A stretch of DNA of 64,000 bases, from IMG/VR virus record IMGVR_UViG_3300005532_000006, positions 1 to 64,000 of that record, one strand, 5' to 3'. Position numbers and translations under genes: made by a program. Below are positions 29,468-43,266 of the stretch, piece by piece. The notes below the pieces were generated by a model, which searched no databases, was not told where the DNA came from, and worked only from the letters and a program-made list of their open reading frames with translations. Position 1 is the stretch's first letter; every line of letters begins with the position of its first letter. This DNA is from a virus.

Positions 29468-30016
29468 CTATCCGTTCCACGTGATCGCCTGATTGGCCGG
29501 CTGCGCCGAGCCGAAGGAGGCGGAGAACGGCGACGGCATCGCGCTCGGCACGGTCATGTTGAGCTGTGTCGCCGAGTTCAGCGTGTTGGTCATGTCGCCG
29601 GCGACCAGGGTATCGAGGTCGCCCGTGCCGTTCTGATCGGCAGGCGACTGCGGATCGTCGATGACCTTGATGACCATCTCGAACGGCACCCGCGAGACGA
29701 ATTCGAACTCCGGTTTGAAGTGCGCGATGACGACCGTATAGGAAAGCACATCCCACGACAGCGTGACCGGGGTGCCGGTCTGCCGCATCTGGTCGATTTC
29801 CAACGCCGCCGCGACGGCGTCGCCGACATCGTCGGAATAGAGCGTGCCCTTCCAGTGGATGTCGTCGTCGCTCGGCCCCATCACGTCGACGATACGCACG
29901 CCGCCCGGCAATTGGTGGACGCCGAGCCGCTGCGCGCCGCCGAAGTTGATGTTCTTGTCGGGGACTGAGCCGCCGCGGGCCGTGAACTGCCCGATCTGGA
30001 CGGGAAAAAGCTCCAT
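29468..30016 (-). CDS. Tail/baseplate protein of unknown class
   Basis: 182 aa from ATG at 30016. Beta-rich: GGVRIVDVMGPSDDDIHWKG, YSDDVGDAVAAALEIDQMR, LSWDVLSYTVVIAHFKPEFE and VPFEMVIKVIDD. This pattern is shared by phage tail proteins encoded after the tape measure (gpU-like or LysM-hub partners). A role in the tail tip is inferred. Confidence 0.68.
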   Translation of the reverse strand: MELFPVQIGQFTARGGSVPDKNINFGGAQRLGVHQLPGGVRIVDVMGPSDDDIHWKGTLYSDDVGDAVAAALEIDQMRQTGTPVTLSWDVLSYTVVIAHFKPEFEFVSRVPFEMVIKVIDDPQSPADQNGTGDLDTLVAGDMTNTLNSATQLNMTVPSAMPSPFSASFGSAQPANQAITWNG

Positions 30017-30025
30017 GGCGGAGAA

Positions 30026-30205
30026 TTACCGCCGCGCGCGATCGACGATCGTCGTGCCCAAGCAAAGCATCGGCTGGACCTCGATCGACAGCGTCTTTGC
30101 GGCGTACTCGCAGTCCTGCTGCTGCGCGTAGTAGCGGATCAGATCGGCCTCGACGTGACCCGAACTCAGCCACACCGCGACGAGCGCCCACGCCATCGTA
30201 TTCAT
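30026..30205 (-). CDS. Small secreted protein
   Basis: 59 aa from ATG at 30205, with AGAGGG upstream. Starts MNTMAWALVAVWLSSGHVEA, which could be a signal peptide, followed by a helix with Asp-Cys and Cys in PMLCLGTT that could pair. It ends 10 bases upstream of the tail protein gene. Too short for many gene callers; no family known. Confidence 0.5.
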   Translation of the reverse strand: MNTMAWALVAVWLSSGHVEADLIRYYAQQQDCEYAAKTLSIEVQPMLCLGTTIVDRARR

Positions 30206-30348
30206 GATCGGGGACCCTCTTGGGAAATCAGTTCGGCGACGGCCGCGCCGAACCGCCGGACGTGTCGGGCCGCGCGAAATCCAGCTTGTCAGGCACCATT
30301 GCGGCCACTACGCTTACTCCTATCGCGTAAAGTTTGGAGCAACAGCCC

Positions 30349-30606
30349 GTGACGCCGGAAGAGGGCACTCCCTTTACTAAAGAGCAGTTGACTATAATGG
30401 CAGGTGCGCTTGAGAAATTGCCAGATCACGTGATGCTTGTGGTCGAGTTTTTGATGAAGTCACTATTGGACAAAAATATTTTATCGGAGGCAGACATCGC
30501 GGGATGGATCGAAAAGCTTGGCACATCGACTTATCCACCCGCAGTCACCGCCGTGGAAAAGCTCAAAGCTTTTTTAGTTCGGACTGGGTTTGACCGAACC
30601 GCCTGA
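30349..30606 (+). CDS. Small rightward accessory protein, atypical composition
   Basis: 85 aa on the plus strand from GTG at 30349 with GGAG upstream (a TTG at 30334 is also possible). Helical and acidic: KEQLTIMAGALEKLPDHVML, FLMKSLLDKNILSEADIAGW. Its AT-richer codons contrast with the 65 percent or so GC of most neighbours, a sign of separate acquisition. It overlaps the 3' end of the tape-measure gene tail to tail by 33 bases. Confidence 0.6.
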   Translation: MTPEEGTPFTKEQLTIMAGALEKLPDHVMLVVEFLMKSLLDKNILSEADIAGWIEKLGTSTYPPAVTAVEKLKAFLVRTGFDRTA

Positions 30607-33198
30607 GTAGTCAGGCCGGGCACCGCCAGCAGCCTTGCCGCCGCCGGACAAGGCTTGTGCGACACCCTTGGCGGCCAAGGCCGCGATCTGCGAGCCAAGT
30701 TGGCCCATGTTGATGTTGACGTTGCCGGTCAGGGTCGCGGTGCCTTGCAGCTGCACGGCCCGGCTCGCGGTCGCCTGGATGGCTGCGGCCGCGGCCTGAA
30801 GGGCCGCCACCGCTCCCGCTAGAGCGCCCGCCACGGCACCGGCGCCTGCGGGGTTGTGTCCCTCGCCCCCGGCCATGCCGCCGTGGACCCCGCCGACGGT
30901 GCCGAGCGCGTACGAAGCGCCTTCGGCTTCGTGAGCAGCCGTCCGAGCCACGGGCATCGTGTGTAAATCGAGGCCCAGCGCCTTGCGCTCCGCAGGTGTG
31001 GGGACAAACCCGGGGATTTCTCCAGCCATCGTGCCAGCGCGCCGGATGAACGGCGGCATGGTCCGGTTGTGAGCATCCAAATTTAGCGGTGCTTTGTATC
31101 CAGGAAGCGCTTCGGCCAGTTCCGGAGTTAGCTCAGGATCAAGGCCAACAAGCGCCCGAACGTAGTCTGAAATCGTCTGCCACATCTCGGCCTGGCCGAT
31201 CTTCTGCGAAGACCAGCCCTTTTTCCGCAATTGTGGCTCTATCTTGTTAAACTTCTCCCAGTCGATGCTATTCAAGTAGTCGTATGCAAGGAATCCAGCG
31301 CCCGCTGTGCCAAGTGCGGCACCGAACGCTCCAAAACGCCGTAGGACGCGACTTGCTTTCGAGACTGCTGCCCCAGCACCGGCGCCGGCTGCGGCCTTGG
31401 CGGGGCCGCCGGTTATAGTGCTCCCCGTTAACCGGCCCGCGGCCGCCGAGAGCTGGCCCGCCGCCAAGGAGAGCCTTCCGGCGGCACCAGTAAGAGCAGG
31501 GCCTGCCGTCAGTAGGCGATAAGCTGCCCATCCGCCGGCCAAGCCTATGCCCCCGATCCCGCCGATCTCTGTGGCGCGGGCAATGCTCGGATGTGCAGCG
31601 CGCTTCTCTGCAATCCAGCTCAGCGCATCCGTCGCCAGATTGACAACACCCAGATTGTCGGTGACTAAGCCAATCGTTGAGGCGAGCGAGTCGAGTTGTT
31701 GCCGGAATGCCTGAAGCGCCTGTTTCGGATCGGAGCGGTCATAGTCGGTGCCGACCTGGTTAACCATTTCTGATGTCCGAACCATGTTCGGATATTGCGC
31801 CAGGAGTTCTTCGACGAACTGTACGGCCTTGCGATCGCTGAAAGCCATGTTCAACGCGCGCATCGCCTTCGCGCGCTCGTTGATGTCTCCGGCTTTGGCC
31901 TTCCCCCAATCTATGCCGAGGTTAGAAAGGGCCGGCAGGAGATCTTTGACGACCCATTTCAGCGGCTCGTTCATCTTGAGCAGTTCGTCTTTCCAAGCAC
32001 CAGCCTCAATTTTCACGTGGCCGTGCTCTGAGCGCCATTTGTGCGGGTCAAGCAGGCCAAGCTTCGTTGCAAACTCCATGGATGCGACTGTCCCGCGGCC
32101 GAATGTCGAGCGCTGGAAAGTCTGTGCCATAGTGCCGACTTTTGAGCCGCTGCCCATCGCCATAAACAGTTCGGGCAGATAGTGGGTGATAAAATCCGGG
32201 TCCATCATGTAAGCGGCGGACCCGGCTGTTGACGCGAACTGTGTGAACGCATTCGCGCCCATCTTGCCGCCGGACGCGATTACGGCACGCATTGCGCCCG
32301 TGATGAAGCTGTTGAGGCGTTCCGGGCTCGTATTAAAACCGAGCTGCTCGCCGGCGCGTATTGCGCTGTAGAACTGGCTGGCTCGCTCTCCGGTCGTGCC
32401 GGCGTTCTCTCCCATGCTGTTTGCCAGAACAGCGTTCCACTTGGCCGCTTCCGGAAGCCAGTGCATCAGCTCCGGCATCGGATCGCCGCCGTGAGACATG
32501 CTCATCATGATCGGATAGAGCTCGCGCTCCAGCGCCATGACCGAGGCTGCCGACATGTTCGGGACCTGCCGGGCCACCCGATAGGCGGCTTGGTTCATCA
32601 GGCCCAAGTTGGCTGCGGCGCCCGGACTCGTGCCGAGCATCTGCCGCGCAAGAAATCGTTGATGGCCGTATTCAACACTCGGTTCGAGGACGGTGCCGGC
32701 CATGCTGGCCATCATCTCGATGTCATTCACGGCGTAGAAGCCGCGGCGGGCAAGTTCCCACATGCTGGCATGTCCACCGCGCGGAGCATGCCCCCCTGAA
32801 CCGATAGCGGGCGGCCTGCCGCTCGGCGGAACGCTGCCCCCAGTGCCACGCGGCGGCGCGCGGAGCGTCGAAAGCAATTTCGACAAAGCCGACGCTTCAC
32901 TCCTGGCCGCCTTCAAATCGCCAGCCAATGTCTGGACACCGCTGGCTGCGCCGGAATTCAGCCGGACTGTCCGAAGCGTCTCCCCAAGCTCCCTTGACGA
33001 TTTTGCTGCTATCGCGGCAGTGCGCGACAACAGTTCCATATCCTTGGCCGCTCGGCCGACGCCGAGGGTACTAAAGGACTTACCGAACTCCTTCTCAAGC
33101 CGGCCGATCTTCTCAAACATTGCTCCGATTTCGCGGAGCCGCCGCGTGGCGCGGTCATTCAAAACAAGATCGGCTTCAACCAAAAAGCGAGCACCCAT
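30574..33198 (-). CDS. Tail tape measure protein
   Basis: 874 aa from ATG at 33198, the longest gene in the window. The N-terminal 120 residues are coiled-coil (RRLREIGAMFEKIGRLEKEF); a long middle contains the usual TMP-like segments (FITGAMRAVIASGGKMGANAF, shown in part, FAAGLGTAGAGF-like hydrophobic helices around residues 560-660), and the C-terminus is Ala/Gln-rich with tail-tip contacts. It sets tail length. The gene is noticeably AT-richer than the flanking structural genes, suggesting separate ancestry. Confidence 0.88.
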   Translation of the reverse strand: MGARFLVEADLVLNDRATRRLREIGAMFEKIGRLEKEFGKSFSTLGVGRAAKDMELLSRTAAIAAKSSRELGETLRTVRLNSGAASGVQTLAGDLKAARSEASALSKLLSTLRAPPRGTGGSVPPSGRPPAIGSGGHAPRGGHASMWELARRGFYAVNDIEMMASMAGTVLEPSVEYGHQRFLARQMLGTSPGAAANLGLMNQAAYRVARQVPNMSAASVMALERELYPIMMSMSHGGDPMPELMHWLPEAAKWNAVLANSMGENAGTTGERASQFYSAIRAGEQLGFNTSPERLNSFITGAMRAVIASGGKMGANAFTQFASTAGSAAYMMDPDFITHYLPELFMAMGSGSKVGTMAQTFQRSTFGRGTVASMEFATKLGLLDPHKWRSEHGHVKIEAGAWKDELLKMNEPLKWVVKDLLPALSNLGIDWGKAKAGDINERAKAMRALNMAFSDRKAVQFVEELLAQYPNMVRTSEMVNQVGTDYDRSDPKQALQAFRQQLDSLASTIGLVTDNLGVVNLATDALSWIAEKRAAHPSIARATEIGGIGGIGLAGGWAAYRLLTAGPALTGAAGRLSLAAGQLSAAAGRLTGSTITGGPAKAAAGAGAGAAVSKASRVLRRFGAFGAALGTAGAGFLAYDYLNSIDWEKFNKIEPQLRKKGWSSQKIGQAEMWQTISDYVRALVGLDPELTPELAEALPGYKAPLNLDAHNRTMPPFIRRAGTMAGEIPGFVPTPAERKALGLDLHTMPVARTAAHEAEGASYALGTVGGVHGGMAGGEGHNPAGAGAVAGALAGAVAALQAAAAAIQATASRAVQLQGTATLTGNVNINMGQLGSQIAALAAKGVAQALSGGGKAAGGARPDYSGGSVKPSPN

Positions 33199-33645
33199 TT
33201 ACTTGGCCCCCGTAAAGACGTGCTCGAATTTTCTTGCCATTTCTTGCTCGACCGGCTTTTGACTGAGCTTCATCGCCGGCTCCATTACCGGCCGCGGCGG
33301 TATTCCGCGCGACGTGCCTAGTTCCTGAAACAGGTCAATCAGATCATTGCTGCCAACTGAAAATTCGCGCTCGCCAGCGACCACAGACTCGACGCTGTCG
33401 CGGATCGCGCCGCTGCGCAGCAAAGGACTGGGCGAAGGCCAGCCGTGCCGCGCCTTGTCTTCCAAGGTCGAAGCCGCCAGCCCAGGCCAACCCGCGCCAG
33501 CGCCATTGCCGTACAAGCTTTGCGCCCGCTTTTTGACGATCTCGGCGCCCTCTTTGAGCATCCGCCGCTTGGCCTCCGGCATATGGCCGGCGCAGCGCTG
33601 GAGAAACTCGCCGAACTCGGCGAGGCTCTTGAAGGTGCGGGTCAT
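33199..33645 (-). CDS. Phage virion morphogenesis / HK97 gp10-like protein
   Basis: 148 aa from ATG at 33645. KSLAEFGEFLQRCAGHMPEA, MLKEGAEIVKKRAQSLYG and WPGLAASTLEDKARHGW, then LLRSGAIRDSVES and GTSRGIPPRPVMEPAM form the standard gp10/virion morphogenesis pattern seen in head-tail or tail completion proteins. Its stop directly abuts the tape-measure start. Confidence 0.85.
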   Translation of the reverse strand: MTRTFKSLAEFGEFLQRCAGHMPEAKRRMLKEGAEIVKKRAQSLYGNGAGAGWPGLAASTLEDKARHGWPSPSPLLRSGAIRDSVESVVAGEREFSVGSNDLIDLFQELGTSRGIPPRPVMEPAMKLSQKPVEQEMARKFEHVFTGAK

Positions 33646-33688
33646 CGGTGTCTACTTTTTGGTTTGCGGCGTAGATGGGGAGGGAGTG

Positions 33689-34063
33689 GTGCGCTACCTC
33701 GTTCTCATCGTGATCATTCTGATCTTCATTTTCCCGACCTCGCGCGAAGCCACGCTCGCGGTAATCGCGGGGCTGATGCACCAAGCAAGGGATCTTGGAC
33801 AGTCGGGGTTGCCCGAGTGTGACAGTCCTCGGGCGCGCGAAGAAGTTGACGACACGATCTCCCGCGCTCCCCTAGGGAAGATCTACGGGATATCGGTTAT
33901 TGAATACGACGCAGTTGAGACAGTTTCCCAATCAGCCTCTTTGGTGGAATGCAAGGCGACAGTTGTGCTCAACAACGACACGTCGCATCCCGCGACTTAC
34001 AGCTTCACGCTCAAGGGCGATCAGCAGTTTGTGCGCTTCCGGATCATAGGATTGGGCGACTAA
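33689..34063 (+). CDS. Rightward membrane/secreted protein of unknown function
   Basis: 124 aa on the plus strand, GTG start at 33689 with GGGGAGGGAG upstream. N-terminal hydrophobic segment RYLVLIVIILIFIFP (signal or anchor), then a soluble beta-rich domain with ECKATVVLNNDTSHPATYSF and VRFRIIGLGD. Its opposite orientation and AT-richer codons mark it as accessory. Together with the next gene it may be a lysogenic-conversion or superinfection-exclusion cassette; this is speculation. Confidence 0.6.
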   Translation: MRYLVLIVIILIFIFPTSREATLAVIAGLMHQARDLGQSGLPECDSPRAREEVDDTISRAPLGKIYGISVIEYDAVETVSQSASLVECKATVVLNNDTSHPATYSFTLKGDQQFVRFRIIGLGD

Positions 34064-34065
34064 CC

Positions 34066-34284
34066 ATGCAAACCATGAAGCAGCGGCGCGGCCACTTCAG
34101 GCGCCCAGTTATCCTGGCGCTTCTATCCATATTGCTCACGCTCAGCCCCATGGCAGACAGCGCCGCTCGCGGTCATCGCGGCGGCATCTACGGCTTCCGC
34201 TCCAGCCCGTGCAAAAGCTCATCGTGCTGGTCGAAGCACCCGAGCGGGTCGTGGACGCACCCGCTGACGCGGCGGAGGCGGTAG
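34066..34284 (+). CDS. Small secreted basic protein
   Basis: 72 aa from ATG at 34066, two bases after the upstream stop. Signal peptide PVILALLSILLTLSPMADSA, then a short Gly/His/Cys/Arg-rich mature part (GHRGGIYGFRSSPCKSSSC, HPSGSWTHPLTRRRR). Similar small cationic secreted proteins are common in rhizobial genomes. It converges on the antitoxin gene, 2 bases away. Confidence 0.55.
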   Translation: MQTMKQRRGHFRRPVILALLSILLTLSPMADSAARGHRGGIYGFRSSPCKSSSCWSKHPSGSWTHPLTRRRR

Positions 34285-34286
34285 GA

Positions 34287-34631
34287 TCAGGCCATCGCCA
34301 GTTGGCGGTCGGTCTCCGGCTCCGCCTCCCGGTCCTCGAATTCGATTACCAGCCGCTTGCCGACTGCGAGGGCCGCACGGTCGAGCGTATCGATTGTTAT
34401 GCCGGCACCGTTGGGGTCGAGAAGCCTGTCTACGGCGGTGCGGCTGGTGTGCATGCGGCGGGCCATCTCGGCCTTCGTGATGCCCGATAGCCGGATCCAG
34501 TCTGCCACCATGTAGGCGATCACCTTGCGCCACGCCTGATCGACCACGACTGCATCAATCCCCTCTTCGACGAGGAAATCGTCGAAATCGCTGCCGATAT
34601 GAGGATTTGTCTTTCCAGTGTTTGCGGTCAT
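34287..34631 (-). CDS. HigA-like XRE antitoxin
   Basis: 114 aa from ATG at 34631, overlapping the toxin stop by ATGA. The XRE helix-turn-helix is clear: YMVADWIRLSGITKAEMARR followed by MHTSRTAVDRLLDPNGAGIT and TLDRAALAVGKRLVIEF. The N-terminal DFDDFLVEEGIDAVVV is the usual lead of this antitoxin class. It neutralises the upstream Gp49-like toxin and probably represses the operon. The toxin-first order is typical of higBA-type modules. Confidence 0.88.
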   Translation of the reverse strand: MTANTGKTNPHIGSDFDDFLVEEGIDAVVVDQAWRKVIAYMVADWIRLSGITKAEMARRMHTSRTAVDRLLDPNGAGITIDTLDRAALAVGKRLVIEFEDREAEPETDRQLAMA

Positions 34632-35065
34632 TTTGCTTTTTCCATTCGGCGTTTGCGCGCACGCGCCAGGTTGATGTCCGATTGAGGGGTTTTCTGCTGC
34701 TTCTTGATGAAGCCATGCAACAGCAGCATGCGACCCTCGTAGACGCTGAAGATCACCCGCGCGATGCGCGTCGGCAACTCGGTCCGCACCTCCCATAGCC
34801 CATTGCCCAGAGGCCGGCACAGCGGCAACCCGACTGGCCACCCGTACTCTGCCGCCTTGATGTCTCTCCCGATCGCAATCCGCTCATTCTCAGGCAAACC
34901 CTTGAGCCAATCCCTTACCGGCTCCGCTCCCGCCGCGGTCCTGTAGAACGAGACCGGGAGCTTTTTCCCTGACCCAGGCTGTACCAAATTTGGTGCGCCA
35001 GTGCCAGGGATTAAATCGCTCCGCCCAGATAAAGGTTCCGTTACCGGCGAGCTCTTCGTCCTCAC
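34628..35065 (-). CDS. Gp49-like / HigB-type RelE-superfamily toxin
   Basis: 145 aa from GTG at 35065, overlapping the upstream stop by GTGA. The Gp49-like (DUF891) toxin starts at PVSFYRTAAGAEPVRDWLKG (about residue 37), followed by WPVGLPLCRPLGNGLWEVRT, RVIFSVYEGRMLLLHGFIKK and TPQSDINLARARKRR, all expected for ribosome-dependent mRNA interferases. About 35 residues precede it, rich in Pro, Ser and Gly, and are absent from typical family members. The start cannot be placed closer because no other ATG or GTG lies between. Confidence 0.87.
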   Translation of the reverse strand: MRTKSSPVTEPLSGRSDLIPGTGAPNLVQPGSGKKLPVSFYRTAAGAEPVRDWLKGLPENERIAIGRDIKAAEYGWPVGLPLCRPLGNGLWEVRTELPTRIARVIFSVYEGRMLLLHGFIKKQQKTPQSDINLARARKRRMEKAK

Positions 35066-35265
35066 TCGCTCGCTTTCCCTCGCGGCTTCGGCCGGTGCAC
35101 CGGTATCTCGTCCCGCGACAGCCCGCGCTCGATAAGTTGGCGGATCGCTTCCGCCTCTGTGGGTATGCGGTGCGCGAACCGGAAATCCTCTATCGCCTTC
35201 GCCTGCTCCGTCGTCAGTGCGACGAGCTTCTTGACGGGGTAAATCACTGCTGAGTAGCGCGCCAT
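35062..35265 (-). CDS. Small ribbon-helix-helix-like regulator
   Basis: 67 aa from ATG at 35265. YPVKKLVALTTEQAKAIEDF (a beta strand, then a helix) and RIPTEAEAIRQLIERGL give a ribbon-helix-helix pattern. It is the first gene of the leftward operon and is coupled to the toxin by GTGA, so it may be a third component or co-repressor. The predicted promoter puts the transcript start about 3 bases before the ATG, so the mRNA would be nearly leaderless. Confidence 0.68.
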   Translation of the reverse strand: MARYSAVIYPVKKLVALTTEQAKAIEDFRFAHRIPTEAEAIRQLIERGLSRDEIPVHRPKPRGKASE

Positions 35266-35274
35266 CGCCTGGCA

Positions 35275-35303
35275 AAAATAGTCGATATTGACGCTATTGA
35301 CAA
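35275..35303 (-). promoter_or_regulatory. Sigma-70-type promoter of the leftward toxin-antitoxin operon
   Basis: On the minus strand TTGTCA (35303-35298) and TATTTT (35280-35275) are separated by exactly 17 bases. The predicted start is close to the ATG at 35265, leaving almost no leader. Its -35 box overlaps the -35 of the divergent promoter. Confidence 0.65.
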
Positions 35304-35325
35304 GAGCGCCTATAGGCTATATGTT
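35297..35325 (+). promoter_or_regulatory. Sigma-70-type promoter of the rightward operon
   Basis: TTGACA (35297-35302) and TATGTT (35320-35325) with a 17-base spacer. The spacer contains the perfect palindrome GCCTATAGGC (35308-35317), a good operator candidate. It would drive the genes from 35401. Confidence 0.65.
35308..35317. promoter_or_regulatory. Palindromic operator candidate
   Basis: GCCTATAGGC is a perfect 10-bp inverted repeat inside the spacer of the rightward promoter. A repressor bound here would block the rightward promoter; the RHH-like or XRE protein of the adjacent leftward operon is the obvious candidate. Confidence 0.5.
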
Positions 35326-35400
35326 CAATGCGTTCAATAGCGGCCCGACCGAGAGCTGGAACCTCCCGACCGGGCCTAACCCCAGCCAAGGAGATGGCCC

Positions 35401-35733
35401 ATGGCTACGGCTACTGCCACACTTACCACATCCTCTCTGCACAATCTGCCCGTTGGCGACATCGTCGATGAACTCGGCGCACTGAAAGCCAGTATCGCGG
35501 ACCTCGAAGCCCGCGAGAAGCGGCTGCGCGACGAGCTGGTCGCCCGCGGCGTCGGTGAGGCCGAGGGTGCGCTGTTCCGCGCCACCGTCTCCGAGGCGAT
35601 CCGTTGGACGCTCGACAGTTCCTTGGTCAAGGAGCGGATGGGCCACGATTGGTGGAACCAACACTGCCGCACTGCCAGCGTGACGACGGTCAAGGTCTGC
35701 GCCCGCACCGGCTCCTTCAAGGCGGCGGCGTGA
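35401..35733 (+). CDS. Conserved coiled-coil phage protein
   Basis: 110 aa from ATG at 35401 with AAGGAG upstream. VGDIVDELGALKASIADLEA continues into a coiled coil, then VGEAEGALFRATVSEAIRWT and a C-terminal WWNQHCRTASVTTVKVCART. This family is common in alphaproteobacterial phages and prophages and often starts an early operon, but has no known function. It heads a four-gene rightward operon with tight spacing. Confidence 0.75.
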   Translation: MATATATLTTSSLHNLPVGDIVDELGALKASIADLEAREKRLRDELVARGVGEAEGALFRATVSEAIRWTLDSSLVKERMGHDWWNQHCRTASVTTVKVCARTGSFKAAA

Positions 35734-35734
35734 G

Positions 35735-36277
35735 ATGGCCGCGACCAATCCCGCTGCCGGCGTTCGCCGGCGCAAGCCGCGCGCACGCCTCTACCGGCGG
35801 ATCGATCTGCGCCGCCGGCGGCGGCGCGTTCATCCCCCGACGATCACCGCGGAAGCCGCACTGCATCTGCTGATGGAAGAGGCGGATATCTTCGCAGTCG
35901 GCCGCAGCCGCTATCTCGTTGCGTGGATCGATGCCGACGTACTGGAAACCCTGATCGTCGCCGCGGGCGCCACCGAAGACCGCGAAGAGAACGGCGACGA
36001 CGAGCCGGATAGCGATCGCGAGCCGGATGTGGACGACGAGCCATCGGTCGGAGCCGATGATCTCGAAAGCGATGGTCTCGACGACGAGGGCGGCGAACGG
36101 ACCGACGAAGACGTGCTGCCTTCTCCAAGACCGCGGCCGCCCATCCTCGACGGCGGTCTCGTCGAAGTCAGCTACGACCCCGTGAACGGCCAGAAGGTTT
36201 TCACTGTCGTCCGCGCGTTGCGGGTCGATCTCGCCAGCCCCGAGCCGCCGCTCGTCGCACCGACAGGAGCACGCTAA
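35735..36277 (+). CDS. Acidic hypothetical protein of the early operon
   Basis: 180 aa from ATG at 35735, one base after the upstream stop. Basic N-terminus (RRRKPRARLYRRIDLRRRRR), a small alpha/beta core (ALHLLMEEADIFAVGRSRYL), a long Asp/Glu-rich stretch (about residues 80-130, DDEPDSDREPDVDDEP) and a C-terminal strand domain. The acidic run may mimic DNA, but the gene could also simply be disordered. Its end overlaps the next ATG by one base. Confidence 0.65.
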   Translation: MAATNPAAGVRRRKPRARLYRRIDLRRRRRRVHPPTITAEAALHLLMEEADIFAVGRSRYLVAWIDADVLETLIVAAGATEDREENGDDEPDSDREPDVDDEPSVGADDLESDGLDDEGGERTDEDVLPSPRPRPPILDGGLVEVSYDPVNGQKVFTVVRALRVDLASPEPPLVAPTGAR

Positions 36278-36924
36278 TGGCAAAGAGCACAAAAGCGAAG
36301 GATGAGGCACCAAGCGCGATCGTCGTGATCGAACCGCCGAAGTTCCAGCGGGCCGTGATCCGGATCGTGGGCACGTCGCCCTACGTGCAGAATAAATTCA
36401 GCCAGAAGGCGCGCGAGCAGATGGAGGCGAAACAGCGCGCCGGATCGCAGGCGACAAAGGGCCGCAAACGCGAGCCCAAGGACTTCGACGCGGTCTACGA
36501 AGGGGCGCTGCACGTCAGCCGCGAGGGTTGGTACGGCATTCCGGCGCCCGCCTTCCGCAACGCGATGATCTCCGCGTGCCGGGTCGTTGGATTTCGCATG
36601 ACGCTCGCAAAGCTGAGCGTCTTCATTGAGGCCGATGGGTTCGACCGTGACGACGGTACTCCCCTGGTCAAGATCGAGGGTGCTCCAAGGCCCTTTCATA
36701 TGACTGCCCGTAACGAGACGGGTGTAGCGGACGTTCGGGTGCGGCCGATCTGGGATGACTGGTCCGCCAATGTGCGGGTACGCTGGGACGCGGATCAGTT
36801 CTCCGCGACAGACATCATGAACCTGCTGGCGCGCGCCGGCATGCAGGTCGGCGTTGGCGAAGGTCGGCCGGACAGCAGAAACAGCAACGGCCTCGGTTGG
36901 GGCCTTTGGGAGGTGGCAGGATGA
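36277..36924 (+). CDS. RAMP-like hypothetical phage protein
   Basis: 215 aa from ATG at 36277. Conserved-looking blocks: FQRAVIRIVGTSPYVQNKFS, GWYGIPAPAFRNAMISACR, TLAKLSVFIEADGFD, VRVRWDADQFSATDIMNLLA and a Gly-rich end GVGEGRPDSRNSNGLGWG. The alternation of strands with a late Gly-rich loop before a final strand is reminiscent of the RAMP/Cas7 ferredoxin-like fold, but no catalytic residue or Cas neighbour is present. It sits in the middle of an early operon and is translationally coupled to the next gene (ATGA). Confidence 0.7.
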   Translation: MAKSTKAKDEAPSAIVVIEPPKFQRAVIRIVGTSPYVQNKFSQKAREQMEAKQRAGSQATKGRKREPKDFDAVYEGALHVSREGWYGIPAPAFRNAMISACRVVGFRMTLAKLSVFIEADGFDRDDGTPLVKIEGAPRPFHMTARNETGVADVRVRPIWDDWSANVRVRWDADQFSATDIMNLLARAGMQVGVGEGRPDSRNSNGLGWGLWEVAG

Positions 36925-37388
36925 GAACCAAATCGACAGTCGCCGGGGAACTTCTGGCGCTCGCGTCGCAGATCAACACCGGCGACAAATTGCAGGCGCA
37001 ACAGGTAGTCGATTGGGCGCGCTCGCACCCGAAATCGGCGCTCTACGCTGCCCTGTGTCCGCTTGGCACCGACGGGAAGTGGGATCTTGTCAAGGCCGCC
37101 GAAGAATATTTGTTGCATCAGGCCCGGCGGCTCATTGCGGTCCACATTGTGGACGAAGCGGGAGCGCGCAAGGTCGTATCACTCAGCGTTGACCGCGTCT
37201 CTGGCGGCGGCTATCGGCGCGTCAAAGACGTGCTGATGGATGTGGAACTGACCGCCGTCATGCTCAAGGACGCGCTGGCAGAACTTCAGAGGGTGCGGCT
37301 GAAGTACGAGACGGTTCAGGCTCTCGCCGGTGTGTGGCGCGAACTGGACCGGGTCAAAGAGCAGTACCGCAACGAGGACGCTGCTTAG
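36921..37388 (+). CDS. Hypothetical protein, fourth gene of the operon
   Basis: 155 aa from ATG at 36921, overlapping the upstream stop (ATGA). N-terminal helical domain TVAGELLALASQINTGDKLQ, then VVDWARSHPKSALYAALC and a beta-rich RRLIAVHIVDEAGARKVVSL, ending in a long helix LAELQRVRLKYETVQALAG. No family recognised. The coupling to the RAMP-like protein suggests the two act together. Confidence 0.68.
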   Translation: MRTKSTVAGELLALASQINTGDKLQAQQVVDWARSHPKSALYAALCPLGTDGKWDLVKAAEEYLLHQARRLIAVHIVDEAGARKVVSLSVDRVSGGGYRRVKDVLMDVELTAVMLKDALAELQRVRLKYETVQALAGVWRELDRVKEQYRNEDAA

Positions 37389-37403
37389 GTTCAGGACAGT
37401 ATC

Positions 37404-37655
37404 ATGAGTTCGGGCACGGATGGGCTAGGCGCAGCTGGGCAAGGCCAGGCCCGGCACCGCAGGCGTGGCAAGGCACAGCGAGGGATGGCGGGGCATGGCG
37501 AGGCTGGGTTGGGCAACGCAACACACGGCAGGCATGGCGACGTGTGGCTAGGCCAGGCGAGGCATCGCGGGTCACGGCTCGGCACCGCAGGCGAGGCAAC
37601 GGAACTGGCTTGGCGAGGCAGGGCAAACCATGGCAGGGCCAAGGGGGCGGCTTTC
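37404..37655 (+). repeat. Degenerate GGC(A/G/T)-rich, purine-biased repeat tract
   Basis: About 250 bases of loosely repeated units such as GGCAAGGC, GGCGAGGC, GGCATGGC and GGCAGGGC with 8- to 20-base spacing. The plus strand is strongly G-rich and C-poor in triplets, giving translated Gly/Arg/His/Ala low-complexity frames (GQARHRRRGKAQRG) on one strand and Pro/Cys/His frames on the other, neither gene-like. It lies between the four-gene operon and the DUF4258 toxin promoter. Confidence 0.7.
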
Positions 37656-37697
37656 GGGCCGCCTCTCCGCGTTCTGTAGCATTCTATGGAACCGTAG

Positions 37698-37727
37698 TTG
37701 ACAGCCTCCGTTGGCGTATCATATTGA
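37698..37727 (+). promoter_or_regulatory. Promoter of the DUF4258 toxin-antitoxin pair
   Basis: TTGACA (37698-37703) and TATTGA (37722-37727) with an 18-base spacer, 31 bases upstream of the toxin start. The -10 lies inside a perfect palindrome. Confidence 0.65.
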
Positions 37728-37730
37728 TAC
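37716..37730. promoter_or_regulatory. Palindromic operator over the -10 box
   Basis: GTATCA-TAT-TGATAC is a perfect inverted repeat with a 3-base centre covering the -10 element. Autoregulation by the HTH antitoxin is the simplest explanation. Confidence 0.65.
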
Positions 37731-37758
37731 AGCCAGCTAGGGCTGTTGGCGCGGATGA

Positions 37759-38106
37759 ATGGCCGATCCCATACCGTTCAAACGGCCCGTCAACTGGGCC
37801 AGGCTTCGCGCCGACCAAGCCGAAGCGATCGTCCGCGAGCGCGCCAAGACCGAGGTCAACGTCATCTTCGGCGATCATGCGTTCGACCGTATCGACGACC
37901 GCTCGATCCTCGCCGAAGACGCCTACTGGATTTTGCAGACTGGGTTTGTCGAGGGGCAGCCGGAGTATGTGGGCGAAGGCGAGTGGAAGGTCATCATGGT
38001 TCGCCGCATGCCCGGATGCCGCGAGGCGGGTGTCGTCACAATCATTGTCTCAAGCAACGATGAGGTCTTCGTAAAAACCGTGGAATGGATGGATTGGCTC
38101 AGATGA
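37759..38106 (+). CDS. DUF4258 RelE-like toxin
   Basis: 115 aa from ATG at 37759. The DUF4258 core is visible: FGDHAFDRIDDRSILAEDAY, then the WKVIMVRRMPG strand and a C-terminal VFVKTVEWMDWL. DUF4258 proteins are predicted RelE-fold toxins that act on RNA. It overlaps the antitoxin start by ATGA, typical of toxin-first pairs. The operator upstream supports autoregulation. Confidence 0.82.
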   Translation: MADPIPFKRPVNWARLRADQAEAIVRERAKTEVNVIFGDHAFDRIDDRSILAEDAYWILQTGFVEGQPEYVGEGEWKVIMVRRMPGCREAGVVTIIVSSNDEVFVKTVEWMDWLR

Positions 38107-38582
38107 CCGACCAGATGACCGAACTGCACCATTACACGAACTGCGGCCTGGACTATGTCTACCTGCGCAACGGCTTTGTGGTGCGAGAGACGCGCCATGG
38201 CCGCGGGATCGCGATCCACGACGCCGCAGCGCTGCACGAGGCCATCGCGCGCGTCGTGATTACGCGACCGCAGCGTTTGCGCGGCCAGGAAGTGCGCTTT
38301 CTGCGCTCGCTGCTCAAGCTTTCGCAGGATGGACTGGCTCGCATTCTGCGCACGAGGCGTGTTTCGGTGGCGCGTTGGGAAGCGCGGCCGAACCATCCCA
38401 TACCGGGCGCCGCCGACTCGGCCCTGCGCTTGTTCTACGCGTTGAAGCTCGAGAAGCACGGTCTTGCCCAGCAGATTTGCGAAATCCTGGCCGAGCTGGA
38501 CGATTTGGAGCATTCGTTGCATGTGATGAGCGACATCAGGCTGCGCGAAACCGAGCGCGGCTGGCAGCGAGAGGCAGCCTGA
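38103..38582 (+). CDS. HTH antitoxin of the DUF4258 pair
   Basis: 159 aa from ATG at 38103. The N-terminal part has the phrase CGLDYVYLRNGFVVRE found in antitoxin-type regulators linked to DUF4258. The middle has an XRE-like HTH, GQEVRFLRSLLKLSQDGLAR with ILRTRRVSVARWEARP. The C-terminus is helical and would wrap the toxin. It presumably binds the 37716-37730 palindrome. Confidence 0.85.
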   Translation: MTDQMTELHHYTNCGLDYVYLRNGFVVRETRHGRGIAIHDAAALHEAIARVVITRPQRLRGQEVRFLRSLLKLSQDGLARILRTRRVSVARWEARPNHPIPGAADSALRLFYALKLEKHGLAQQICEILAELDDLEHSLHVMSDIRLRETERGWQREAA

Positions 38583-38601
38583 CGGCACGGGAATCTGGTC
38601 T

Positions 38602-39212
38602 TCAGCTATCGAATAACCCTTTCTCGCCGGCCAGCTTCTTGAAGGCGTGAATGAAGGCGAGGCGCCGCGCCCGCGACATCGTCATCGCAACGTCGTACGC
38701 GATCCCGTTCTTTATCAGGCAGGCAACCTCATAGAGGGCTGCCTGCCGGGTCAGTTTTTTGCGATCGCCTCGTCGCTGTCGGCATTGTCGATCTGGCTCT
38801 CAAGGTGCTCCCGCACGGCGCGGACTCCAGAGCGATCCACCATCTGGAACATGCTGCGGAGTTGGACCCCGTTTCTCGGAAAGGGCACTTTGGCGCCGTC
38901 GATCTCGGCCACTCGCGCGGCCAGGACGAGCTGGACCATCCAGGATCCATTCTCAGTACGGGCACCCGCAAGTTCCAGCAGGTCCAATTCGTCGAGATAA
39001 GACAGCTCCCGCAGCCTCAGCCGTCGCCCCTTCTCGTCAATCAGCAGCCCGTCCGGCGTGATCTTAGGCCGCGGCGTCGGCGCTTCGGGCGCTACCGGCG
39101 CAACCGCAATCGGCTCCGGTTCCGGCGTTCCGCCGATCGGCTGCTGCACGACGGCGGGCGCCTCTGCGGCGGGGCCGGCATAGGCGATGGTCGGCCCGAT
39201 GGCGTCGGACAT
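38602..39212 (-). CDS. Tail assembly chaperone, -1 frameshift fusion product
   Basis: Translation from ATG at 39212 proceeds to the slippery heptamer A-AAA-AAC (38760-38754); a -1 slip then continues as LTRQAALYEVACLIKN and ends at 38602, giving about 203 aa. The extension is all-helical and includes AMTMSRARRLAFIHAF. Such fusions are the longer of two tail chaperones that bind the tape measure protein during tail assembly, like lambda G and GT. A stem-loop (38718-38747) sits 6 bases after the slip site. Confidence 0.85.
38718..38760 (-). promoter_or_regulatory. -1 programmed frameshift signal
   Basis: Minus-strand slippery heptamer AAAAAAC in the right phase (GCA AAA AAC, then the 0-frame stop TGA). 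Six bases later is a perfect 8-bp stem, GGCAGGCA/TGCCTGCC, whose loop contains a further CCTC/GAGG pairing. Heptamer, spacing and stem match known -1 frameshift signals. Confidence 0.9.
38751..39212 (-). CDS. Tail assembly chaperone, unshifted product
   Basis: 153 aa from ATG at 39212. The N-terminal half is a Pro/Ala-rich linker (about residues 10-50). The core is LLIDEKGRRLRLRELSYLDE and WMVQLVLAARVAEIDGAKV, with a C-terminal ending DEAIAKN at the slip site. This is the standard short chaperone located between tail tube and tape measure genes. It is made when the ribosome does not shift at 38754-38760. Confidence 0.85.
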   Translation of the reverse strand: MSDAIGPTIAYAGPAAEAPAVVQQPIGGTPEPEPIAVAPVAPEAPTPRPKITPDGLLIDEKGRRLRLRELSYLDELDLLELAGARTENGSWMVQLVLAARVAEIDGAKVPFPRNGVQLRSMFQMVDRSGVRAVREHLESQIDNADSDEAIAKN

Positions 39213-39295
39213 GGTGGGTTCTCTTCTGTTGTGGAGGGGCGTTGTGCGCGGTCCTGCGCTCGGCGCAGACTGCTCGAAAGCTGGGGGAGGCGGCG

Positions 39296-39571
39296 ATGGC
39301 AGAGACACCGCAGCGCGGGTTATTCGCGCTCGGCTTCACCGTGATCGGCATGCAAGATTTCGCGGCCAAGCTGCTGCGGGCTGCGCTGAACGACGAGCCG
39401 CTTGACGAGGCCGCGCTGGCCGCGATCCAGGCGAGCTGCATCCGCGATTTGAAAGACGCGTATCCGGTTGGTCTGACGATCGAGGACGAGGCCGCAATCA
39501 TCGGGCAGGCGATCCAGAACCTCGAAGAGCACATGCGCCTCGCAATCCAGCGAGCGCGGCAACGGGACTGA
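39296..39571 (+). CDS. Small rightward hypothetical protein inside the tail region
   Basis: 91 aa on the plus strand from ATG at 39296 with GGGGGAGG upstream. RGLFALGFTVIGMQDFAAKL, LIRAALNDEPLDEAA-like helix and CIRDLKDAYPVGLTIEDEA, ending in a basic helix. It resembles small alphaproteobacterial hypotheticals and is oriented against the tail genes. No function assigned. Confidence 0.6.
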   Translation: MAETPQRGLFALGFTVIGMQDFAAKLLRAALNDEPLDEAALAAIQASCIRDLKDAYPVGLTIEDEAAIIGQAIQNLEEHMRLAIQRARQRD

Positions 39572-39654
39572 GCGCAGGCTTCCGTCCAAGCCGATCACGC
39601 TCACCTGTCGGGCATCGACAATAAGCATCGCCTGATCCACCGAACGATGATCGC

Positions 39655-40101
39655 CTACGACAGCTGCGTCCGGGTCGATGCTCGGCCCTGGACCCGCATC
39701 TTGATCATGTCGTCGGCCTTCACGTCGCCGATGTCTTCGCAGGTCAACATGAGGCCGCTGAACAGGAAAACGTGCACCGCGCCAGTGTCGGCGTCGATGA
39801 TCGTCTCGGTGATCGTGCCGGCGTTGATCGCGCCGCCCTGGTAGTAGGTCGATTCCAGGTTGGCGAAGAACGTATCGACGCCGGCGTTCTGGCGGTCGAG
39901 TTCGAAGTCGAGTTCCCAGCCGGCGATGATCGGCACGAACTTCGGCGGCCCGTTGATCGGCCGCGACACGCGATGGTCGTAGAGGCCGCGGCGCCGGAAC
40001 GACTGCGTGATGTCGAGGCTGAGGAGCCCGGCGTCGGTGACGATGTTGAACGATACGTCGCGGCCGGTATTGACCTGGTTGATGCCACCAAGCTGCGCCA
40101 T
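39655..40101 (-). CDS. Tail tube protein
   Basis: 148 aa from ATG at 40101. The N-terminal GRDVSFNIVTDAGLLSLDIT, GPPKFVPIIAGWELDFELD and a late IIDADTGAVHVFLFSGLMLT are the strand pattern of contractile-tail tube proteins. It directly follows the tail sheath gene in transcription order, the normal arrangement, but a terminator hairpin separates them. Confidence 0.8.
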   Translation of the reverse strand: MAQLGGINQVNTGRDVSFNIVTDAGLLSLDITQSFRRRGLYDHRVSRPINGPPKFVPIIAGWELDFELDRQNAGVDTFFANLESTYYQGGAINAGTITETIIDADTGAVHVFLFSGLMLTCEDIGDVKADDMIKMRVQGRASTRTQLS

Positions 40102-40118
40102 GGCGGTGTGCTCCCGTC

Positions 40119-40150
40119 AAAAGAAAAGCGGCGCCGGTTGAGGCGCCGCC
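40119..40150 (-). terminator. Terminator between sheath and tube genes
   Basis: On the minus strand GCGGCGCC/GGCGCCGC forms a perfect 8-bp stem around TCAACC and is followed by TTTTCTTTT. It would stop or attenuate leftward transcription from the sheath gene. Confidence 0.85.
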
Positions 40151-40178
40151 ACGTGTGAAGAGGGAAAAGGGGAGCGGG

Positions 40179-42083
40179 CTAGCTCCGGGCGAAGGCCGGC
40201 GGCGTCTGCGAGACGTTGACCTGGACGGTCTGGCCGCCCATCAGGTTGACGACGAACCAGCGGATGACCGCGAGATACTGGACCCGCACCGCGGCGATTT
40301 CGTAGCCGAGCGCGGCCATGTTCGGCGGCGTCGTGGTGTCGTCGATCTCCACCGACCAGGGCGGCACGCCGATGCCGTTGGCGCTGTCGGCGTTGCCGAT
40401 CATGCCCTCCTGCCACATGTCGTTGAAGAAGTCGTCCATGACGGCCTTCGCCGCCTTGCGCTGGTCCGGCGTCTGCAGCAGGCCGATGTTCTTGCCCGCC
40501 CACAGCCCGATCGAGCGGGCGATGAAGTCCGTCATCATCGCGTAGTTGTCGCCGTTGATCGCGGCGTTCGACGACGTGTTGATGCCGTTGTTGGCGGCCC
40601 AGTACTGGCCGCCCGGCGGGTTGTTGCAGATGAGGTCGAGCCGGTAGGAGTAGAGCGCGTCCTTGTCGGCGTCCGACCAGACGCCGCCGGTCAGCGTCTT
40701 CTGCGACCCGATGATGCCGTTGATGATCTTGTTCAGGGTCGAGTTCTGTGGCGCCTGCTGAGCCCGCATCGCGGCCATGAACGTAGCCGGGGCCAGGACC
40801 CGCTCCGTCTGGTTCGTCGTGTCGTACCAGTAGAGCCAGTCGCCGAAAGTGACGCGCAGCGCATAGTTGTCGACGCCGGCCGTCGCCAGTTCGGTGGCGG
40901 CGTTGGTCAAGGTATCGGCGCTCGGGGTCGAAGTCTCGACGAGGATGCCCTCGGACTGGCCGAACGCGGCGAAATTGGTCCAGTAGGTCGAGACCGAGGC
41001 GTCCACCGGGCAGGCGATGCCGACGCCCTGCGCGCGCAGCGCGTAGAGCCCCTTGCGCGGCACCACATCGACGCCGAGGAGCGTCGCGTCGGTGATGCCG
41101 GACCAGCCGTCGGTGCCGCCCGTCATCGGGACGGTCGTGGCGGCGTTCGGGGCGGCGGCGGCGCCCGTTCCGGCGGAGGCGACGCACAATTGCGACGGGC
41201 CGCGCAGCGCCGAGTTGCCGTTGTTGACGGCATTGGCGATGTTCGCCCACAGAAGGTTGCCGGTGCCGGTGAGGTTGTCGAACTTCTCGGCGACGAAGCC
41301 GGGCCGCGCCAGGACCAGCGCGGTCGAGCCGGCGAGGGTGCCCGGCTGCAATGAGGCGAGCAGGCCGTTGCCGACGGTGCCGGTGTAGAGCGCCGTCAGG
41401 GTGAGCTTCACGGTCGCCGCGGTCGAGGTGCCGGCGGTGAAGGTCGTCGTCGGGCTGGAGCCGCCGACCGAGGGCGTGATCGAGGTCCATCCCGTGCCCG
41501 GAGCGGTGCCGCCGGGGCAGTAGACCGAGATGACCGCGCCGGCGACCGAGAAGGCGAAACCCGCGGCTTGCAGCTGCGTATTGGCGCTGAGCAGCGCCGC
41601 CAGCGAGGCGGCCACCGCCGAGGCCGTAGGCGGACCCGCGGGGACGGTGTAGCTGACGACGATCGGCGAACCGGCGGTCGGAGTGAAGGTCAGGGTCGGG
41701 ATGTCGCCGGCCTTGACGGTGCCGGCGATCGTCTCGGTCGCGAAGGTCTCGCTCGTCGAGTACGTGCCGGTCGCCGCCGTGTCGGTGCCGTCGCTGACGC
41801 GCACGTTCTTGAAGCTCGACACGTAGTTCTCGACCGCGACCGCGACCGCGCTGGAGAGGTCGAACTTGCGGTTGGTGACCGGTCCGAACGTGGCGACCTG
41901 CTCGTCGTTGCCGCCCACCACCATCGGGATGTTGACCGGACCCCATGAGGCGGCGCCGATGTAGCCGAGGATGTTGACCGGAACCCCGGTGACCGGCGGC
42001 GTCGGGGTTTGAATCTGAACCACCGCCTTCGGTGCGCCGAGCGCGAGGACGTTGGTGGTGCCGGCTTGCACGATCTGCGTCAT
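40179..42083 (-). CDS. Tail sheath protein
   Basis: 634 aa from ATG at 42083. The N-terminal domain has VPVNILGYIGAASWGPVN and a following FGPVTNRKFD; later come QRKAAKAVMDDFFNDMWQEG, GYEIAAVRVQYLAVIRWFV and the C-terminal QVNVSQTPPAFARS, all typical of contractile sheath proteins. Length is normal for large sheaths with inserted surface domains (about residues 120-330 are Thr/Ala/Gly-rich). It proves a myovirus-type tail. Terminators lie on both sides of this gene. Confidence 0.95.
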   Translation of the reverse strand: MTQIVQAGTTNVLALGAPKAVVQIQTPTPPVTGVPVNILGYIGAASWGPVNIPMVVGGNDEQVATFGPVTNRKFDLSSAVAVAVENYVSSFKNVRVSDGTDTAATGTYSTSETFATETIAGTVKAGDIPTLTFTPTAGSPIVVSYTVPAGPPTASAVAASLAALLSANTQLQAAGFAFSVAGAVISVYCPGGTAPGTGWTSITPSVGGSSPTTTFTAGTSTAATVKLTLTALYTGTVGNGLLASLQPGTLAGSTALVLARPGFVAEKFDNLTGTGNLLWANIANAVNNGNSALRGPSQLCVASAGTGAAAAPNAATTVPMTGGTDGWSGITDATLLGVDVVPRKGLYALRAQGVGIACPVDASVSTYWTNFAAFGQSEGILVETSTPSADTLTNAATELATAGVDNYALRVTFGDWLYWYDTTNQTERVLAPATFMAAMRAQQAPQNSTLNKIINGIIGSQKTLTGGVWSDADKDALYSYRLDLICNNPPGGQYWAANNGINTSSNAAINGDNYAMMTDFIARSIGLWAGKNIGLLQTPDQRKAAKAVMDDFFNDMWQEGMIGNADSANGIGVPPWSVEIDDTTTPPNMAALGYEIAAVRVQYLAVIRWFVVNLMGGQTVQVNVSQTPPAFARS

Positions 42084-42157
42084 CGGGCGAGTTCCTTCAA
42101 AGGGACGGCGGCGCTATCCAGCGGCGCGCGGCGCTTGCCCAAGGCGCTTTCCGGGCA

Positions 42158-42180
42158 ACAAAAAGCCCCCTCGCGGGGGC
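42158..42180 (-). terminator. Terminator upstream of the sheath gene
   Basis: On the minus strand GCCCCC-GCGA-GGGGGC is a perfect tetraloop hairpin followed by TTTTT. It closes the leftward transcript from the gene at 42208. Confidence 0.9.
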
Positions 42181-42207
42181 GCGGTTCACGTGGTGGAGGG
42201 TGCGGTT

Positions 42208-42546
42208 CTACGCCGGTTCGGCGGCTCCCTCAGGAGCGCTATCGCGGCGGCGAGATGGTGCCGCCGGCGTCGCATGGGGCGCAGCAGCGATGGCGCGCGC
42301 GAGCCGCACAGGGTGGCCCTCCGGCAGCGCCGCGAGCGCGGGATGGCCGTCTGACAGATGCGGCAGTACCGCATCGTGGTCGTCGGGCAACTGCATGTTG
42401 TGGCCGTGCGCCGCGTGCTCGCTGTCGCGGATGTCGGCGAGCCGCTCCGGGTGCGCGACGATGTCGCCCTTCTTGTACTCGACAAGCTCCCCGGTGATGG
42501 GGCACTTGCGCGAGAACGGCACGCGCACGATGAACGAATTCGTCAT
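42208..42546 (-). CDS. Hypothetical structural-region protein
   Basis: 112 aa from ATG at 42546 with AGGAG upstream. The N-terminal half is a small beta fold with a possible RKCPITGELVEYKKGDIVAH metal or knuckle motif; the C-terminal half is His/Ala/Pro-rich (EHAAHGHNMQLPDDHDAVLP). It lies just before a terminator. Function unknown. Confidence 0.62.
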   Translation of the reverse strand: MTNSFIVRVPFSRKCPITGELVEYKKGDIVAHPERLADIRDSEHAAHGHNMQLPDDHDAVLPHLSDGHPALAALPEGHPVRLARAIAAAPHATPAAPSRRRDSAPEGAAEPA

Positions 42547-42563
42547 GGAGAGCTTCTCCTCAG

Positions 42564-42899
42564 TTACGCCGCCACCCGGCAAGGGATGTGCGAGTAGGCC
42601 GACAGGACGCGGGGCGGTGTGTCGGTGGTCGTGACCGTCACCCGGAACAGGTAGATCACCCCGTCAAGGCAGTTGCCGACATCCTGGCTGACCGTCGTGA
42701 TGCCGTTGGCTGTGGCGTGGTTCGCGCTGCCGATCAGACGCGAGGCCGGCGCGTTGTCGGTCGCGGTGCCGAACGGCGTGGCCAGAAGCTCGACATCGAC
42801 CGAGGCGATCGTCGAGACGCCGAGCATTGCGGTTACGTCGAAGGTGAAGGTATCGACGTCGCCCGGCTCGATCGGAGAGAAGTCGTTGCCGACAAACAT
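42564..42899 (-). CDS. Phage structural-region protein, beta-sandwich-like
   Basis: 111 aa from ATG at 42899. FSPIEPGDVDTFTFDVTAML, STIASVDVELLATPFGTATD and IYLFRVTVTTTDTPPRVLSA give a seven-stranded Ig-like pattern seen in small phage decoration or structural proteins. Located 17 bases upstream of the next gene. It may decorate the head or tail. Confidence 0.68.
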   Translation of the reverse strand: MFVGNDFSPIEPGDVDTFTFDVTAMLGVSTIASVDVELLATPFGTATDNAPASRLIGSANHATANGITTVSQDVGNCLDGVIYLFRVTVTTTDTPPRVLSAYSHIPCRVAA

Positions 42900-42913
42900 G
42901 CGCGGCCCCTCCT

Positions 42914-43150
42914 CTACTGCGCGAGCAGTCCGCCGATAGCGCCGCCGACGGCGAGGCCGCCGGTCACGATGTTGCCGCTGAACAGCCCGGAACCGCTGAT
43001 CACGGTCGTCCCTTGCGGCTGCGCCACCTGGCAGAACGACAGGCCGCCGTCGTGGCACTTCGCCATGACCTCTCCGGTAACCGGGTCTTTGACGGTGTAG
43101 GTGCAGCCGGCGAGGGCGAGGAAGCCCGCGAGAGCAAGAGCGTGTTGCAA
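42914..43150 (-). CDS. Small lipoprotein
   Basis: 78 aa. TTG start at 43150 supported by GGGAGG 4 bases upstream. The lipobox is clear (LALAGFLALAGC); the mature part contains TYTVKDPVTGEVMAKC and a Gly-rich hydrophobic C-terminus, GLAVGGAIGGLLAQ. Small phage lipoproteins can block superinfection or act as outer spanins. It is unusual to find one among structural genes. Confidence 0.7.
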   Translation of the reverse strand: MQHALALAGFLALAGCTYTVKDPVTGEVMAKCHDGGLSFCQVAQPQGTTVISGSGLFSGNIVTGGLAVGGAIGGLLAQ

Positions 43151-43161
43151 GTTGCCTCCCG

Positions 43162-43266
43162 CTACCGCGGCGCACCCAGCAGCCAGAACAGGATCAGCCC
43201 TTCGACGACGGCGCTGAAGACGCCCGCGGCAAAGCCGGCCATCACGCCGTCGATGAACTTGCGCAT
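43162..43266 (-). CDS. 34-residue membrane peptide
   Basis: ATG at 43266, overlapping the 3' end of the 609-aa gene by 25 bases. The peptide has one hydrophobic span, GVFSAVVEGLILFWLLGAP. It ends 11 bases upstream of the lipoprotein start. The overlap and neighbouring lipoprotein suggest a real, coupled micro-gene, possibly a pair with the lipoprotein. Confidence 0.5.
   Translation of the reverse strand: MRKFIDGVMAGFAAGVFSAVVEGLILFWLLGAPR

Follow-up and report, generated by a model that had tools for sequence, protein, structure and literature searches.

The four-gene cassette studied here, together with the repeat array that follows it, is a member of the VIPR (Viral Interference Programmable Repeat) kind, which was described in a 2026 preprint and proposed as an ancestor of CRISPR interference (PMC13142463). 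In VIPR systems, a RAMP protein is combined with an accessory gene, vap, and with guide RNAs in which GGY and NN alternate; the published vrRNA tracts have 9–16 repeats, and array architecture differs between VIPR types (PMC13142463). The cassette lies in a window (the whole 64,000-nucleotide stretch that was analyzed) taken from an IMG/VR virus record of 90.9 kb, and both the record and the virion genes around the cassette indicate a phage or prophage location. We assign a probability of about 0.9 to the whole explanation, i.e., a VIPR system whose carrier is a phage or prophage with a contractile tail and whose host is probably an alphaproteobacterium, including the mechanism proposed below.

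Cassette genes and the Vipr protein

The four ORFs are present and tightly coupled as stated in the first-pass annotation, the three junctions being a gap of one base, an overlap of one base (TAATG) and ATGA (Table 1). Its description of them as an early operon was not supported, as the cassette sits among tail genes of the opposite strand. The surrounding late virion genes (neck/tail completion, sheath, portal and terminase) suggest that the four genes are an inserted cassette in the tail region, with no obvious early operon. No phage relatives of window positions 30000–44000 were found at the DNA level.

Table 1. Features of the cassette, its guide array and flanking virion genes (window coordinates)
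Feature	Position	Strand	Description
Neck/tail completion protein	33199–33645	opposite to cassette	
Sigma-70-like promoter site	35297–35325	+	TTGACA-17-TATGTT, 10/12 consensus letters, consensus match only; upstream of ORF 1
ORF 1	35401–35733	+	110 aa, coiled-coil-like, probably passenger
ORF 2	35735–36277	+	180 aa, acidic middle, probably passenger
ORF 3 (vipr)	36277–36924	+	215 aa, RAMP-family protein, C-terminal glycine-rich loop
ORF 4, probable vipr-accessory protein (vap)	36921–37388	+	155 aa, ATGA-coupled to vipr
Guide 1	37413–37460	+	AC TG TA GC TG AA CA CC AC; 9 NN; 7/10 units perfect GGY; left end undefined
Slip A, guides 1/2	37461	+	one base, CGC-A-GGC
Guide 2	37462–37529	+	GT AA AC GA AT GG AT GA TG TG AA AA AC; 13 NN; 10/14 units perfect
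Slip A, guides 2/3	37530	+	one base, GGC-A-GGC
Guide 3	37531–37588	+	AT GA GT TA CA GA AT GG AC TC AC; 11 NN; 8/12 units perfect
Slip A, guides 3/4	37589	+	one base, CGC-A-GGC
Guide 4, imperfect	37590–37651	+	indel after second unit; read by eye
GC-rich hairpin, array 3' end	37643–37667	+	predicted fold; possible transcript end or RNA tail
Sheath	40179–42083	opposite to cassette	

When ORF 3 was compared with all PDB chains (phmmer), a single match was obtained, the SUSP1 Vipr protein (36pp_D, E 2.1e-4), and a profile of 24 ORF 3 relatives matched SUSP1 Vipr at E 1.1e-4. With hhalign, the ORF 3 profile aligned to this protein with 90% probability (E 1.6e-6) over a region spanning the C-terminal helix and the glycine-rich loop. 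ORF 3 also matched PHROG 4652 (E 1e-18). An AlphaFold model of ORF 3, for which the alignment of 24 relatives served as input, had a pLDDT of 84. In a Foldseek search of this model against PDB, all leading matches were CRISPR-complex subunits (Cmr, Csm, type III-D, type VII and Craspase), and the top ones were Csm3/Cmr4/Cas7-type subunits; the best E value was 4.6e-5, with modest TM-scores (0.34–0.50) and 8–14% identity. The late glycine-rich loop reported earlier, GVGEGRPDSRNSNGLGWG, is found at the C-terminus, and G192, G196, R197, S200, G205 and G209 are invariant across the 24 relatives. A thumb domain is among the defining features of Vipr; in ORF 3, residues ~41–78 are lysine/arginine-rich and were modeled with lower confidence. 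The initial view of ORF 3 as RAMP-like was thus borne out both by sequence (SUSP1 Vipr) and by fold (CRISPR RAMPs), and the AlphaFold and profile comparison of 36277–36924 with RAMP folds, which had been proposed as its check, returned RAMP matches and no confident non-RAMP fold. ORF 3 is a Vipr protein, i.e., a small RAMP homolog with a glycine-rich loop.

ORF 3 resembles the CRISPR backbone RAMPs Csm3, Cmr4 and Cas7 in fold (Foldseek, E from 5e-5) and in its glycine-rich loop. Unlike in the systems of these proteins, however, neither a further cas gene nor a CRISPR array was recognized next to it, and the guides take the form of gapped pentamer codes instead of spacers. The CRISPR array and several cas genes that define Class 1 CRISPR-Cas are absent from the cassette, which instead has the content of a minimal VIPR locus: vipr and a conserved ORF 4, with no further Cas genes and no CRISPR array.

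Relatives of Vipr were collected from 74 IMG/VR loci, 20 prokaryote genome contigs and named phages. Homologs of ORF 4 occurred at 71 of 94 vipr loci (L001, a near-identical record, is included in both numbers). They mostly followed vipr at a short distance, and in some cases the array was located between both genes. The conserved unit consists of vipr, ORF 4 and the array. All 30 aligned members of the ORF 4 family matched PHROG 15946 (unknown function). The ORF 4 model (pLDDT 90) begins with a helical part, forms a short strand at the GGGYR motif and ends in a long helix, and ORF 4 had no Pfam, PDB-sequence or PDB-fold match. No homology was detected between ORF 4 and the gene after SUSP1 vipr, so that the role of ORF 4 is one that we infer; it is probably the vap of this lineage.

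Guide arrays in the window and in related loci

An array of GGY-NN pentamers begins on the plus strand 25 bases after the last stop codon of the cassette, opens with GGC AC GGA TG GGC TA GGC at 37413 and extends to ~37650/37651. We scanned the window with a pattern of ten GGY-NN units, scored out of 30 fixed letters. The best scores were 28/30 at 37462 and 27/30 at 37531, corresponding to the first ten units of guides 2 and 3, respectively, as compared with a best score of 24 in 30 random 64-kb sequences and a maximum of 25 in 5000 dinucleotide shuffles of the array segment. Guide 4 scored 22/30 over ten units, which alone is within the null range. As a positive control, the same scan detected one GGY/NN tract upstream and two downstream of vipr in phage SUSP1, for which one upstream and three downstream vrRNA tracts were reported (PMC13142463). 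The window tract adjoins vipr, has guides of 9, 13 and 11 NN pairs with some imperfect units, and is less regular than the arrays of most relatives. No T-run terminator was found at its 3' end, and neither hammerhead ribozymes nor other Rfam RNAs were found near it at relevant scores.

The first-pass annotation had noted that no CRISPR array or Cas gene is seen. This holds for CRISPR, as the locus has no spacer-repeat array and its ORFs gave no Cas family matches; the annotation missed, however, the guide-type array directly downstream. The accompanying guess of a nucleic acid-guided complex pointed in the right direction, since a guide-type repeat array is located next to ORF 3, but the pairing of ORF 3 with a DNA mimic was not supported.

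Similar arrays were present in many related loci. All 186 clean GGY/NN runs, which came from 56 loci (the IMG/VR set and the window), were on the vipr strand, and nearly all were within 3 kb of vipr, mostly downstream. Because the guide parser also outputs trailing fragments after arrays, statistics were restricted to guides with at least 60% perfect units, except for the histogram of NN pairs per guide, which was unfiltered and peaked at 8–10, close to the published range of 9–16 repeats. Among 312 distinct delimited guides, the fixed positions were G (0.93), G (0.92) and C/T (0.92), whereas a broad mix of bases occurred at NN. The most frequent distances from one GGY to the next were 5 (2039 cases), 10 (262 cases, one imperfect unit) and 4 (291 cases), and in 267 of these 291 four-nucleotide slips the single intervening base was A. 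The GGC-A-GGC slip may be a boundary between adjacent guides that are packed head to tail; in arrays of this Vipr lineage there is no tail between guides but a one-base slip instead. The NN pair immediately before the slip was biased (AA or AC in 131 of the 312 guides), and this last pair therefore may not be a free specificity position.

The closest comparison is with the type II VIPR of phage SUSP1 and of a Pseudomonas fulva prophage (PMC13142463, PDB 36pp). The window shares with them Vipr homology, a phage location, a minimal locus of vipr plus accessory gene, and GGY/NN tracts that lie next to these genes and on their strand. However, its Vipr protein is only about 26% identical to those of the SUSP1 group, its accessory protein is not homologous to that of SUSP1, and in SUSP1 every guide is an RNA by itself, about 100 nt long and with its own structured 3' tail, whereas the window guides are contiguous and parted by one A. 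An invariable 3' tail after each repeat tract, which is characteristic of type II, is absent in the window. As array architecture differs between VIPR types (PMC13142463), the missing tails argue against type II and not against VIPR. The head-to-tail, one-base-punctuated layout and the uncharacterized partner set the locus apart from the experimentally studied type II systems. It should be noted that the preprint refers to supplementary data on "staggered arrays with overlapping vrRNAs" (PMC13142463), so this layout may already be partly described there.

Comparison of two close relatives, L054 and L069, revealed that most guides are shared and in the same order. Their third guides (L054:8737–8789 and L069:8737–8789) are almost entirely different (GG TA GC TA GC TC AG GT GA AA in L054 versus AT GT AT TC GC AC AG AT CG AC in L069), and the fifth guide also differs largely. 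Whole guides thus appear to be swapped between close relatives. In other relatives with 53–65% Vipr identity (L003–L007, L026 and L041), no GGY/NN array above the scan threshold was detected; these loci may use another consensus or may have lost the array.

Possible targets, proposed mechanism and alternative explanations

By analogy with the published SUSP1 and P. fulva systems, Vipr (36277–36924) would coat guide RNA transcribed from the array (37413–37651), with the GGY triplets serving as a protein-held scaffold. The NN pairs would be read jointly, with one target base skipped per pair, and would bind the double-stranded DNA of rival phages; ORF 4 (36921–37388) probably assists in DNA binding. 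The outcome would probably be repression of target genes and not cutting, as the cassette has no recognizable nuclease. What the present sequences show is the homology and fold of Vipr, the array, the conserved unit of two genes plus array, and the GGY/NN composition across relatives; guide binding, repression, the skip rule as applied to these guides and an effect on competing phages are all taken from the two published systems.

Targets of the window guides were searched for in several ways. Exact 1-nt-skip patterns found no target in IMG/VR, nor did patterns with 2–3 mismatches allowed in 300 Bradyrhizobium-family genomes, and when skip lengths 0–3 were applied to the fetched loci none stood out except for an array self-match at skip 3. 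Guides of L054 and of phage Brocalys also had no target in IMG/VR, and those of the Bradyrhizobium locus L078 matched at chance, with the reversed-pattern control matching too in one search. When 347 guides were tested together against 2.3 Mb, only a weak excess was seen for skip 1 (7 versus 0–2 matches below E 0.01), and 2 of the 7 lay in loci fetched by the pattern itself.

A guide of L076 (GA AT GT AA CT TT TC CG GT GG, at L076:7636–7690), read by the 1-nt-skip rule, agreed with the vipr gene of L077 (L077:1215–1243) in 18 of 20 bases. This match is in frame, places the skip at the codon wobble position and decodes to the conserved Vipr helix D[IM]VNL[LF]SRVG. The exact pattern had no match in IMG/VR, whereas a relaxed pattern (one pair dropped and one base changed to R) had six in 2.9 million contigs, all in vipr genes; as the motif is conserved, these six are not independent of the first. 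In a shuffle test, 39 of 3817 shuffled guide sets reached a match of this type (p about 0.01, counting only sense, in-frame matches to vipr genes; inclusion of antisense matches or ORF 4 genes would raise the count a few-fold). The L076 match thus supports the skip rule and VIPR-against-VIPR targeting within this lineage to a moderate degree, short of proof.

It is possible, and we suggest it tentatively as somewhat less than an even chance, that these loci represent a tail-less VIPR layout, in which guides lie head to tail, the GGC-A-GGC slip acts as punctuation that ends and starts guides, the fold of the accessory protein is a new one, near-identical phages differ by replacement of entire guides, and the conserved vipr motif of other phages is the target of some guides. 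Both this one-base punctuation and the guide that may target vipr are relevant to how guides could be delimited and replaced in the absence of Cas1, and to whether phages disarm one another's guide systems.

The partial degeneracy of the window array leaves room for a decaying VIPR locus, in which both proteins, Vipr and ORF 4, remain intact while the guides erode and no longer have a target. The imperfect GGY units, the indel in guide 4 and the window guides without a target in our searches are consistent with this alternative. However, the four ORFs are all open and coupled, the three slips are preserved with the register kept between them, and imperfect units also occur in many relatives; decay is therefore unlikely, though it deserves consideration. 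Much less probable is that the array is an RNA decoy or scaffold for Vipr which regulates the phage itself or blocks host CRISPR complexes. The lack of an identified target for the window guides would fit such a role, and competition of the RAMP fold with Cas7-type subunits is conceivable, but NN is free while GGY is held and whole guides appear to be swapped between L054 and L069, as expected of specificity elements, and the L076 guide decodes to a vipr motif.

ORFs 1 and 2 had no relative at the other vipr loci examined, with the exception of L001, apart from one diverged and weak ORF 1 relative near vipr of L104, and ORF 2 had no relatives in the phage collection. They look like local passengers that share the promoter-like site upstream of ORF 1. 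The conserved association of neighbors across phages, which the first-pass annotation had proposed to check, is therefore found for its "helical protein" (ORF 4) and not for ORFs 1 and 2. This bears on its suggestion that the RAMP-like protein and an acidic DNA mimic form an anti-defense module. ORF 2 is coupled to vipr in this phage and its middle is acidic as described (the N-terminus is strongly basic), but the idea of a DNA mimic loses support if ORF 2 is a passenger, and it is the array and ORF 4 that recur at other loci. We dropped the DNA-mimic and anti-defense readings, now highly improbable, because ORF 2 is not conserved with vipr. Finally, that the GGC-rich stretch is functionless low-complexity DNA is scarcely credible: G is abundant in the segment and its predicted RNA fold does not stand out (z −1.15), but its period-5 register is far above composition-matched shuffles, it is biased to the vipr strand and recurs beside vipr in dozens of phages, and it has the specific A-filled 4-nt slip.

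Hosts, named relatives and neighboring genes

Starting from the window cassette, we reached about 100 relatives spread over many bacterial groups, among them laboratory mycobacteriophages as well as isolate genomes of Bradyrhizobium, Roseococcus and Azohydromonas. Among 142 genomes from the class of Bradyrhizobium, a homolog of the window sheath was found in a single one, from Bradyrhizobium lablabi, in which a VIPR of this lineage is present as well. Terminase, sheath and tail genes of the window phage have counterparts in the prophage region of this genome (24–57% identity), where the VIPR is located about 26 kb before the terminase; compared with the window, this position shows that related phages carry the cassette at different places. 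L078 and the B. lablabi SZCCT0422 contig of 668,473 bases (114–187 kb) hold a prophage with a VIPR of this lineage and a window-related head/tail module.

Mycobacterium phage Brocalys, Gordonia phage ODay and Cyanophage Cy-LDV1 resemble the window in having vipr, an ORF 4-like neighbor (assigned to the family by eye from sequence) and arrays with GGC-A-GGC slips; their arrays differ in being more regular and variously placed around the genes, and Vipr identity is 32–58%. The genes in question, Brocalys gp45-46, ODay gp19-20 and Cy-LDV1 g34-g33 (L098, L099 and L097, respectively), are annotated as hypothetical despite this VIPR content. A laboratory strain, M. smegmatis mc2 155, supports growth of Brocalys.

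Two further gene pairs lie next to the cassette in the window. On the minus strand, 34290–34841 and 34631–35275 encode a Gp49-like (DUF891) protein and a helix-turn-helix protein, a probable toxin-antitoxin pair, as the DUF891 family includes HigB-type toxins. After the array, at 37759–38582 on the plus strand, two overlapping genes, one with a weak DUF4258 match and the other encoding a helix-turn-helix protein (PHROG 5119), resemble another module of the toxin-antitoxin type.
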